A stretch of 64,000 bases of DNA, taken from assembly GCA_034506395.1 (NCBI GenBank), contig JAPDPQ010000003.1:98818-162817 (forward strand). Reading direction: 5' to 3'. Every line of letters begins with the position of its first letter. Position 1 is the stretch's first letter. A model generated the notes under the pieces. That model made no database searches, was not told the DNA's origin, and worked only from the letters and a program-made list of their open reading frames with translations. Made by a program: the position numbers and the translations under genes. Origin of the DNA: a candidate division KSB1 bacterium (GTDB taxonomy: Bacteria; Zhuqueibacterota; Zhuqueibacteria; Thermofontimicrobiales; Thermofontimicrobiaceae). Below are positions 3,415 through 18,017 of this stretch, in pieces.

Positions 3415-3541
3415 CATCTCAAATCTAACAAGGCCAATTTTGAGGCAACGTTTCGATCTCGGTTGAATGGATCGAAAAAGTTATCGTTCACTAAATTTGT
3501 AGCTTCGATCATCCTTTGAATCATCATCTTGGGAGCAAATT

Positions 3542-4444
3542 ATGAGCGTTCTGGTGGTCGGCTCTGTCGCCCTTGATACAGTGGAAACGCCATTTGGCAA
3601 GGTCGACGACGCCATTGGCGGCTCGGCAACTTATTTCAGCGCAGCCGCGAGTTATTTTACAGATGTCAATATCGTTGCCGTGGTCGGCGAAGATTTTCCG
3701 ATCGACCAAATCAAATTTCTCCAAGCCCGCGGTGTGAATCTCGATGGACTTGTGGTCAAACCTGGAAAAACATTCCGGTGGGGTGGAAAATATGATTTCG
3801 ATCTCAATCAGCGGGAAACGCTTTTCACCCATTTGAACGTGTTCGAAAATTTCGACCCGAAATTGCCCGAACACTATCGAAACACCCCTTATCTATTTTT
3901 GGCAAACATACATCCAGAACTCCAGCTCAAAGTGCTCCATCAAATGTCCCAGCCGAAATTGGTCGTGATGGACACCATGAACTTCTGGATCGAACGGACG
4001 CCTGCGCCACTCGCAGAGGTTTTGAAACGTGTCGATATCTTGATTGTAAATGATTCTGAAGTCCGTCAATTGGCTCAAACGCCCAATTTGTTTATTGGAG
4101 CGAAGCGAATCCAAAAGATGGGCCCAAAAATTATTGTGATGAAGAAGGGGGAACATGGAGCGCTATTGGTGCATGATGGCCAATACTTCTGGGCCCCAGC
4201 ATTTCCCTTGGAACAACTCCAGGACCCAACTGGCGCGGGAGATACTTTTGCTGGTGGATTTGTCGGTTATTTGGCCAAAGTTGATGATCCGTCTCCGGCT
4301 CATCTGAGAAAAGCGGTCATCTACGGCAGCACGCTCGCTTCCTTCTGCGTGGAACAGTTCAGCCTCAGGGGGCTCAAGAACCTTTCTCCCCAGCAGATCG
4401 AGCACCGCTATCGGCAGTTTATCGATATGGTCAAATGCGATTAA
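3542..4444 (+). CDS. PfkB-family carbohydrate/nucleoside kinase
   Basis: A 300-residue ribokinase-fold protein. The N-terminus has VGSVALDTVETPFG and GGSATYFSAAAS; the C-terminus has the catalytic anion-hole signature DPTGAGDTFAGGF, whose aspartate is the family catalytic base. KKGEHGALL is the usual ATP-domain strand. A GGGAG site lies just upstream of the ATG. PfkB members phosphorylate sugars or nucleosides; the substrate here cannot be assigned. The nearby YjbQ protein, ECF ATPase and purine permease suggest cofactor or nucleoside salvage, but that is inference. A second, divergent PfkB kinase lies at 7617. Confidence 0.88.
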   Translation: MSVLVVGSVALDTVETPFGKVDDAIGGSATYFSAAASYFTDVNIVAVVGEDFPIDQIKFLQARGVNLDGLVVKPGKTFRWGGKYDFDLNQRETLFTHLNVFENFDPKLPEHYRNTPYLFLANIHPELQLKVLHQMSQPKLVVMDTMNFWIERTPAPLAEVLKRVDILIVNDSEVRQLAQTPNLFIGAKRIQKMGPKIIVMKKGEHGALLVHDGQYFWAPAFPLEQLQDPTGAGDTFAGGFVGYLAKVDDPSPAHLRKAVIYGSTLASFCVEQFSLRGLKNLSPQQIEHRYRQFIDMVKCD

Positions 4445-16646: not shown

Positions 16647-17240
16647 TCACTTTGGCGAAGCTTTCGAAGCATCGCTATCGTTGCAGTTCCCTTTTCGTTT
16701 CATGAATTCCTCTAATGTCATTTTTTTCTCCCAACATTTCTGGTCGATATAATCCAGAATATAGCCAAATTGCTCGGCGGGAATATATCCCGGCAACACC
16801 GTGATCACCTCATGTTGCGGAGAAATGAACGCCAGAGATGGGAAACCCGTTACTTGAAACGCGCGGGTGAGCTCAATGTGATTGAATGTATGTCCCTTGA
16901 AAGTTACTTTCTGATTTGGATCTTCCGCATTGATCCTCACTGTCACAAATCGATCGCTCAATTTTCGAGCAACGTCAGGATGATTGAACGTCTTTTCGTC
17001 CATCACTTTGCACCAATGACACCAGTCAGTGTAAAAATCAACGATCATATTCTTATTTTCTTTGGCTGCTTTCTCCAATCCCTGATTAAAGCTAATGGTG
17101 AAATTCCGATGTTCCACTTGCTTACCTTGCGAAGGTGGCGTCGACTTCTTGTTTTGTGCTATGGATTCATTGGTGGCATCGGAGCAACTCAAAATGAGCA
17201 GCGCAAAGATTGCAAATAATAAGCTCAATTTTCTATTCAT
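16647..17240 (-). CDS. Thioredoxin-like lipoprotein with WCHWC active site
   Basis: About 197 residues. The N-terminus MNRKLSLLFAIFALLILSCS is a lipoprotein signal with a lipobox-type cysteine at residue 19. A thioredoxin-fold domain follows, with FYTDWCHWCKVMD as the CXXC active site (about residues 72-84) and FQVTGFPSLAFI as the cis-proline loop. WCHWC resembles DUF255/SoxW-type disulfide reductases more than classical WCGPC thioredoxin. ATG 17240 is chosen because GGAGG lies six bases upstream. It is predicted to act in the periplasm, at the end of a - strand run of small thiol/metal proteins. Confidence 0.85.
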   Translation of the reverse strand: MNRKLSLLFAIFALLILSCSDATNESIAQNKKSTPPSQGKQVEHRNFTISFNQGLEKAAKENKNMIVDFYTDWCHWCKVMDEKTFNHPDVARKLSDRFVTVRINAEDPNQKVTFKGHTFNHIELTRAFQVTGFPSLAFISPQHEVITVLPGYIPAEQFGYILDYIDQKCWEKKMTLEEFMKRKGNCNDSDASKASPK

Positions 17241-17423
17241 AGTGATCCTCCACATGTTCAATAAGATTAAATGGGAGCAAATTTCAAAATGCTATTATTA
17301 AACGATCCGCTAAAAAAATAAATCAGCTTCATTTTTTTGCTATTGCATTGACTAAAAATACCATTCTGAAATAAAATGACAAAGAAGTGCTCGCAAAGCC
17401 TCCGGCTATTGCAATTATGATGC

Positions 17424-17630
17424 TCAGGAAAACGGTCCAGATGAACTACATCCTGTCGCGCCTGATGAATGACCACCTATTGTTCCGCTGGTACCAAAGG
17501 CTGAGAAAATGCGCTGCGGATTTGGCTCCCCGCAGACAGGACAAATAAGCCCTTCTGAACTCCCTCCAATGGATTGAAAAACATCAAAAATCTTTTCGCA
17601 CTTTTTGCACTTGTACTCATAAATTGGCAT
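17424..17630 (-). CDS. FmdB-family zinc-ribbon protein
   Basis: The 68-residue protein begins MPIYEYKCKKCEKIFDVFQS, the signature of FmdB-type putative regulators. Two CXXC pairs (CKKC near residue 8, CPVC near residue 31) form a zinc ribbon, followed by a glycine/serine-rich tail containing one more cysteine. The role of the family is unclear: some members sit near formamidase genes, but most are of unknown function. The site GAGGGAAG supports the start. It lies 12 bases after the end of the UGA-interrupted frame at 17643-17810, so the genes are probably cotranscribed. Confidence 0.88.
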   Translation of the reverse strand: MPIYEYKCKKCEKIFDVFQSIGGSSEGLICPVCGEPNPQRIFSAFGTSGTIGGHSSGATGCSSSGPFS

Positions 17631-17642
17631 CTCAACTTCCCT

Positions 17643-17810
17643 CTAATTTTCCATTTCATTTCCTTTATTATGCTTCAATTCCTTGTCATGACGATCAGAC
17701 TGAAAGTCACAGGCATTGGACATTCAGGTCGGAATGCCAAGCCGCGGCAGAACAAATCGCATCAACAAAAAGTATGCAGCAATAAATAGAAGCGGAGTAA
17801 TAATATCCAT
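17643..17810 (-). CDS. Small membrane protein with an in-frame UGA; candidate selenoprotein
   Basis: An ATG at 17810 follows directly on the TGA stop of the DUF6132-type gene, with a GGAGAG ribosome site four bases upstream. It encodes 28 residues: a membrane segment (TPLLFIAAYFLLMRFVLP) followed by RLGIPT. The next codon is TGA (17724-17726). If this is read as selenocysteine, the frame continues 26 codons, giving UMSNACDFQ and a polar tail, and stops at TAG 17643-17645. U-x4-C would then match the C-x4-C (CRTGTC) that follows the membrane segment of the upstream neighbour. A hairpin lies about 24 bases after the TGA. If read as a stop, this is a 28-residue membrane peptide. No family was recognised with certainty. 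Confidence 0.42.
17685..17700 (-). promoter_or_regulatory. Possible SECIS-like hairpin after the in-frame UGA
   Basis: On the - strand GTCTGA and TCA-T-GAC pair (six base pairs with one bulged T) around a three-base TCG loop, beginning 23 bases after the TGA at 17724-17726. Bacterial SECIS elements lie at about this distance and carry a guanine in the apical loop. The stem is short and the loop guanine is in third position, so the fit is only partial. Confidence 0.25.
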
Positions 17811-18017
17811 TCAACTCTCCTTTTCTGAGTTATCCCTTTTCTTTTTAGCGGTGCCCCAAACCAACACTAATGCGAATAAGGCACCATAACCAGTGCTGAT
17901 CCAGGGATTGCTTGTGATAGGGCAGGTTCCAGTTCGGCAACCAACATAGTAATAATACGCATATCCCAGAACACCTCCCACCACTACAATGAGCGCTTTA
18001 AAAATGTAAGATTTCAT
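17811..18017 (-). CDS. DUF6132-like small membrane protein with CX4C motif
   Basis: The 68 residues contain an N-terminal membrane segment (IFKALIVVVGGVLGYAYYYY), then VGCRTGTCPITSNPWISTGYG and a second hydrophobic segment, ending in a lysine-rich cytoplasmic tail. GCxxGxCPITSNP is the characteristic block of the small DUF6132-type family, common in Bacteroidota relatives and of unknown function. The two cysteines in C-R-T-G-T-C could form a redox pair. An AGAGGAAAAC ribosome site lies upstream. The next frame starts at the base after its stop, so translation is probably coupled. Confidence 0.8.
   Translation of the reverse strand: MKSYIFKALIVVVGGVLGYAYYYYVGCRTGTCPITSNPWISTGYGALFALVLVWGTAKKKRDNSEKES

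Follow-up and report, generated by a model that had tools for sequence, protein, structure and literature searches.

On the minus strand of the window, the 64,000-nucleotide stretch from a candidate division KSB1 bacterium analysed here, positions 17643–17810 hold a 55-codon gene that encodes a single membrane helix, the motif LGIPT, an in-frame UGA, the motif MSNAC and a charged tail, and ends in TAG. When TGA is translated as selenocysteine (Sec, U), the gene reads MDIITPLLFIAAYFLLMRFVLPRLGIPT-U-MSNACDFQSDRHDKELKHNKGNEMEN-TAG, and this translation, together with the homologues described below, defines a predicted selenoprotein of 55 residues with its ATG at 17810, U29 and a stop at 17643–17645. 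The in-frame UGA is codon 29 (17724–17726), and the codon at 17709–17711 encodes Cys34, the second residue of a U-x4-C motif. The predicted helix covers residues 4–23 (17742–17801) in an AlphaFold2 model whose tail is disordered and whose mean pLDDT is 67.9, poor beyond the helix; its hydrophobic core has a mean Kyte-Doolittle value of 2.5 across 51 homologues. Neither Pfam and NCBIfam scans nor the AlphaFold2 model place a thioredoxin fold with CxxC in the 55-residue protein itself, where it is found only as a fused partner in other genomes.

The initial annotation had described a start codon coupled to the preceding stop and a strong ribosome-binding site, and both are present: the TGA stop of the upstream gene runs straight into the ATG at 17810, AAGGAGAG lies immediately upstream of that ATG, and an AGGAG occupies 17817–17821. 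The 26 open codons between UGA and TAG were likewise confirmed, as were the 12 bases that separate the TAG from the ATG at 17630 of the next gene, all on the minus strand, which had been left unstated. The upstream gene (17811–18017) encodes a DUF6132 membrane protein (PF19628, 31.2 bits, cut-off 23.2) whose C-x4-C (CRTGTC) stands just after its helix, as the U-x4-C does in the predicted selenoprotein, a correspondence already pointed out from the sequence. Downstream on the same strand lie genes for an FmdB-family zinc-ribbon protein (17424–17630; TIGR02605, 59.9 bits) and a thioredoxin-like protein with a CHWC site (16647–17261; Thioredoxin_2/Thioredoxin_7, PF13098, 68.5 bits).

With the read-through protein as query against 99 relatives, 53 genomes gave a match, 51 with UGA at the Sec column; G045 has Cys there and G008 has TAA. 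A profile search likewise matched the family in 53 of 82 genomes of the phylum and, in a wider set, in 76 of 310 genomes (74 UGA, 1 Cys, 1 TAA), the 23 positive genomes from outside the phylum spanning 21 families. The loci of these 23 genomes and of G068 were inspected and all carry UGA, which in G106 is one residue further on. In the class of G157, also outside the phylum, all five genomes searched were positive, three of them new and all with UGA. Overall, UGA stands at the same column in 77 of 79 related genes. The sole homologue with TAA at this codon (L067 in G008, minus strand, near 3511–3597) continues behind the TAA with the family-like sequence MNPDACRVPPRP; its genome has selA and selB, and gene decay, a genuine stop or misassembly may each account for it.

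Behind the UGA, all 77 genes have 17 or more open codons in frame, compared with 61 of 77 in the +1 frame and 24 of 77 in the +2 frame. The true terminators of the 51 UGA frames from the search of relatives are mixed (TAA 22, TAG 17, TGA 12), and the uniform UGA near codon 29 therefore does not reflect ordinary stop usage. In 52 aligned proteins (51 UGA, 1 Cys), four positions never vary (P22, G25, T28 and U/C29), and two more, L21 and C34, reach at least 90% conservation. A conserved in-frame UGA with conserved coding on both sides, as expected of a bacterial selenoprotein gene, is seen in the UGA column, in C34 and in the fusions described below. The initial annotation had left its proposal to depend on whether homologues generally end at this stop and on whether the downstream codons are conserved; in general they do not end there, and conservation is present.

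Homologues with Cys at the UGA position, another point that had been raised for checking, were also found. In 5.8 billion proteins, a profile search found 338 matches at E≤0.1, compared with one database protein found by a single-sequence search with the window protein (P0001). Among the 120 matches listed, 59 proteins were inspected, and 42 of them have Cys at the UGA column, typically as LGIPTCMSGAC; named sources of Cys forms among the matches listed include Myxococcales, Planctomycetaceae and Obscuribacterales. A further eight of the 59 have Trp at this column, as a code-4 gene call would give, and nine are short entries ending right before the codon, all in G[IV][PS]T; most of the remaining proteins among the matches listed have 29–30 residues. 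In the metagenome gene calls P0002, P0003, P0004, P0012, P0017, P0024, P0031, P0032 and P0042, Trp stands in for Sec; they look like code-4 translations and are a trap for automated family building. A pattern scan of contigs, which required Cys in the pattern and so returned Cys forms only, gave nine loci, seven of them credible and two (L107 and L108) apparently spurious. The seven are recorded as Bryobacterales, Bryobacteraceae, Acidobacteriia, Deltaproteobacteria, Planctomycetales, Chloroflexi and Cyanobacteriota, and within the phylum G045 also encodes Cys.

In all five genomes of the class of G157, the helix-LGIxTU module runs through the UGA into a complete thioredoxin domain in the same frame. 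These fusions score 92–101 bits against PF00085, and all exceed the TIGR01068 cut-off. Each bears an ordinary WCxPC thioredoxin site, and the Sec lies in the helix module. If the UGA were a stop, the helix part and the thioredoxin would be severed in all five; read-through is therefore indicated by the sequence of the fusions. The five genes (L158–L162) encode predicted membrane-anchored thioredoxin selenoproteins, an arrangement undescribed in the libraries searched.

The initial annotation had found no sel genes in the window and had left decoding unproven on that account; the machinery lies elsewhere in the same genome, an assembly of 5.56 Mb and 95% completeness. A tRNA-Sec was detected at 68.8 bits (Rfam cut-off 47), with a second place at 47.4 bits, and ARAGORN types the tRNA as tRNA-Sec with anticodon UCA. 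SelA (485 bits) and an adjoining SelB (376 bits, cut-off 242) were found, as were two selD genes over the cut-off (L163 and L164, on contigs C29 and C33). One of these has an in-frame UGA, giving KCAG-U-ASKLS in a 349-residue frame; the other has no UGA and a 750-residue open frame, perhaps a fusion. Table 1 of PMC13188914 gives UxxK as the motif of Sec-containing SelD, which KCAG-U-ASKLS fits; the genome thus has a further Sec site, of a well-known kind. Given selA, selB, tRNA-Sec and a UGA-containing selD, the genome very likely decodes UGA as Sec. The tRNA-Sec found here differs from what the relevant portion of PMC9012183 reports for KSB1 genomes, namely selA, selB and selD but no selC. 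The methylmalonyl-CoA mutase of the window's genome also points to a probable KSB1 host, since its named near matches include four KSB1 entries at 73–77% identity, with the top matches reaching 87%.

Across the phylum, SelA exceeds its cut-off in 48 of 51 UGA genomes versus 13 of 29 genomes without the family, and outside the phylum in 23 of 23 family genomes versus 5 of 15 without it (Fisher p 6e-6, the lineages being unmatched). The three UGA genomes of the phylum without SelA over the cut-off are G006, G046 and G024. SelB is present in G024; in G006 and G046, incomplete at 73% and 78%, no SelB exceeds the cut-off either. Both SelA and SelB are present in G045 (Cys) and G008 (TAA).

A SECIS-like stem-loop lies behind the UGA at 17691–17707 on the minus strand, with 17702–17707 pairing with 17691–17696 around a loop at 17697–17701. 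The stem starts 17 bases after the UGA and covaries across relatives. It was assessed in a gapless alignment of 45 bases from the UGA covering 44 of the 51 UGA loci from the search of relatives; L058, L060, L061, L064, L066, L069 and L097, with differing spacing or misaligned, were set aside, and five of the six of these that were folded show a stem at a slightly different place. For the six-pair stem (columns 20–25 with 31–36), 92.8% of cells in the 44 loci are paired, versus 38–55% when the stem is slid. Covariation across the same loci is 0.609 versus 0.253 in shuffles, with five pairs changed on both sides, and RNAalifold recovers five of the six pairs. The window's own stem has two central mismatches, leaving four of six consensus pairs, and the 42 bases folded from the window do no better than their shuffled versions (z -0.54, equalled by 51 of 200). 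None of 15 singly folded sequences reaches z -2, the consensus stem is absent from the best fold of L072, L081 and L062, and an Rfam scan of the window gave nothing at the gathering score. The hairpin at SECIS-like distance noted initially holds only in part for the window: relatives show a covarying stem, but the window's own copy is weaker than the initial annotation implied.

A covariance model built with the window left out scored the window's site at 26.7 bits, with the next best place in the window at 9.4, although much of that score is coding sequence. On 35 other loci, this model gave 14 matches at E≤1, of which 11 fell among the 24 UGA loci and the other three on the Cys loci L103, L100 and L102. 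Compared with synonymous shuffles, 72 of 77 UGA loci have z below 0 and 19 of 77 reach p 0.05 (mean z -1.28), while the Cys loci have a mean z of -1.41 (n=10, two of which look spurious). Fold energy was therefore rejected as a discriminator of Sec genes, since the UGA and Cys loci differ little in this respect. In two Cys loci, L105 and L106, a GCUCGGU-type hairpin is retained directly after the Cys codon; it resembles the stem behind the UGA and is perhaps left over from a recent Sec-to-Cys replacement.

Same-strand neighbours were counted at 52 phylum loci, including G008 and G045, with G068 counted among the outside loci and identities taken as the Pfam names of cluster representatives; some contigs end nearby. 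The phylum neighbours are mostly FmdB zinc ribbons, DUF6132 proteins and redox genes: FmdB lies at most 700 bases away in 38 of 52 loci, and within 2.5 kb DUF6132 occurs at 26, DUF72 at 15, a cytochrome c554-like protein at 12 and the Thioredoxin_7 protein at 8. At the 27 loci of the outside group, FmdB occurs in 3 and a PDO/Grx protein in 4, and at most loci outside the phylum no redox gene was recognised nearby. Ten of the 103 outside-group neighbour frames, chosen by eye mostly as redox-like and serving as illustration, not as a count, were scanned. They comprise rubrerythrin (G138), OsmC (G185), AhpD-like CMD and thioredoxin (G201), YgaP-like TM proteins (G178 and G273), a methyltransferase (G068), a thioredoxin-like domain (G231), and ArsR with FmdB (G087).

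Because the UGA column is kept in 77 of 79 genes and the frame runs on into thioredoxin in five, we consider that the UGA is very probably decoded as Sec in a real small membrane protein, as had been proposed initially; the Cys homologues and the sel genes of the window's genome also support this prediction. As to its role, the fusions and neighbours suggest a membrane-anchored U-x4-C redox partner of thioredoxin-type proteins, a reading that we hold with even odds. SelB with Sec-tRNA would insert Sec at the UGA. Basic residues after the helix would place the U-x4-C in the cytoplasm: on average, the four residues before the helix core contain 0.04 K/R and 1.1 D/E and the 12 after it 1.8 K/R, and by the positive-inside rule this enrichment suggests a cytoplasmic motif. 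There, at the membrane, Sec29 might attack its substrate, be this a disulfide, a persulfide or a peroxide; Cys34 would resolve it as a selenenylsulfide, and a thioredoxin, fused in some species, would reduce the selenenylsulfide again.

A fair rival, somewhat unlikely in our judgement, is that the selenoprotein is real but works at the membrane with DUF6132 and FmdB by binding a metal or as a carrier of sulfane sulfur or selenium, rather than in thioredoxin-coupled redox chemistry. YgaP carries sulfane sulfur, and the YgaP-like genes near the family gene in G178 and G273 would suit such a role, as would the FmdB zinc ribbon, the commonest phylum neighbour, and the DUF6132 gene at half of the phylum loci; however, the canonical WCxPC thioredoxin fused in five of five genomes of one class, the free thioredoxin adjoining in G201, and the Grx-like, rubrerythrin or OsmC genes near other loci argue for the redox reading.

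It is far less probable that the UGA is an ordinary stop, so that the gene would encode a 28-residue membrane peptide and the downstream codons would be an untranslated leader of the next gene, the null alternative considered from the outset. The many database entries of about 29 residues, among them the nine inspected that end before the codon, would fit such a peptide, as would the weak hairpin of the window and the TAA in G008. Yet the codon is UGA in 77 of 79 genes, not a variety of stop codons, and an open frame follows; the Cys behind the UGA is conserved, thioredoxin fusions run through it and full-length Cys homologues exist, and we therefore disfavour the short peptide. That this genome reads UGA as a standard amino acid, for instance as Trp under genetic code 4, is exceedingly improbable despite the Trp in P0002 and in eight of the 59 proteins inspected among the matches listed, since TGA ends ordinary genes here (both the flanking DUF6132 and FmdB genes) and 12 of the 51 homologous frames, the UCA-anticodon tRNA of the window's genome is typed as tRNA-Sec, and other lineages encode Cys, not Trp, at the column.

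The evidence, all of it from sequence comparison, strongly supports a previously undescribed selenoprotein family with a function deduced from its context. No Pfam or NCBIfam model scored over its cut-off for P0001, P0002 or ten Cys homologues; at E≤1 the models of known bacterial redox selenoproteins gave no match, the only ones being two chance-level matches to other families, and nothing matched among PDB sequences. Table 1 of PMC13188914, a 2026 inventory of 119 prokaryotic selenoprotein families, contains no small single-helix U-x4-C protein, and no description of a helix-U-x4-C family was found in the literature searched, including portions of PMC12013277 and PMC5029168. The redox selenoproteins in that table include Sec-thioredoxin, TsoA with its LULAXC motif (NF045695) and a CC/Se-motif family (NF041239). 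The predicted family resembles known bacterial redox selenoproteins in its in-frame UGA, Cys homologues, candidate stem behind the UGA, nearby Cys and occurrence in Sec-using genomes, but a U-x4-C after a membrane helix is absent from the motifs of the same table. A further difference is that the fusions keep a WCxPC thioredoxin and carry Sec in the helix module.

The family also differs from the proteins encoded beside it. DUF6132 shares the placement of its motif and is a frequent neighbour, but a Pfam scan of P0001 gave no PF19628 match at E≤1, and the DUF6132 protein of the window extends further past the motif and has another hydrophobic segment. An FmdB-family selenoprotein (TIGR02605) in UxxU form is listed in Table 1 of PMC13188914 and belongs to the same zinc-ribbon family as the neighbour here; the FmdB gene of the window, which encodes a separate protein, has Cys in place of UGA.

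Although it was found in 76 of 310 sampled genomes, 23 of them outside the phylum, the gene is missing from Pfam, NCBIfam and Table 1 of the 2026 inventory. Annotators truncate or mistranslate members of the family, and the case illustrates how an internal UGA can hide very short proteins from annotation. SelK and SelS are small eukaryotic proteins with one membrane helix and with Sec in a flexible part after it. The predicted protein is like them, by analogy, in being small and single-helix with Sec after the helix; it differs in that Sec directly follows the helix and a Cys that would resolve it stands at +5. The fusions point to a partner and to a chemistry that are open to direct testing. 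We tentatively propose, at somewhat less than even confidence, that the family, found in the phylum and in 21 outside families, represents an old, widely distributed class of minimal membrane selenoproteins with a thioredoxin-recharged selenol site, a bacterial counterpart to the SelK/SelS design, which may have been overlooked because gene callers cut its members to a 28-residue scrap.
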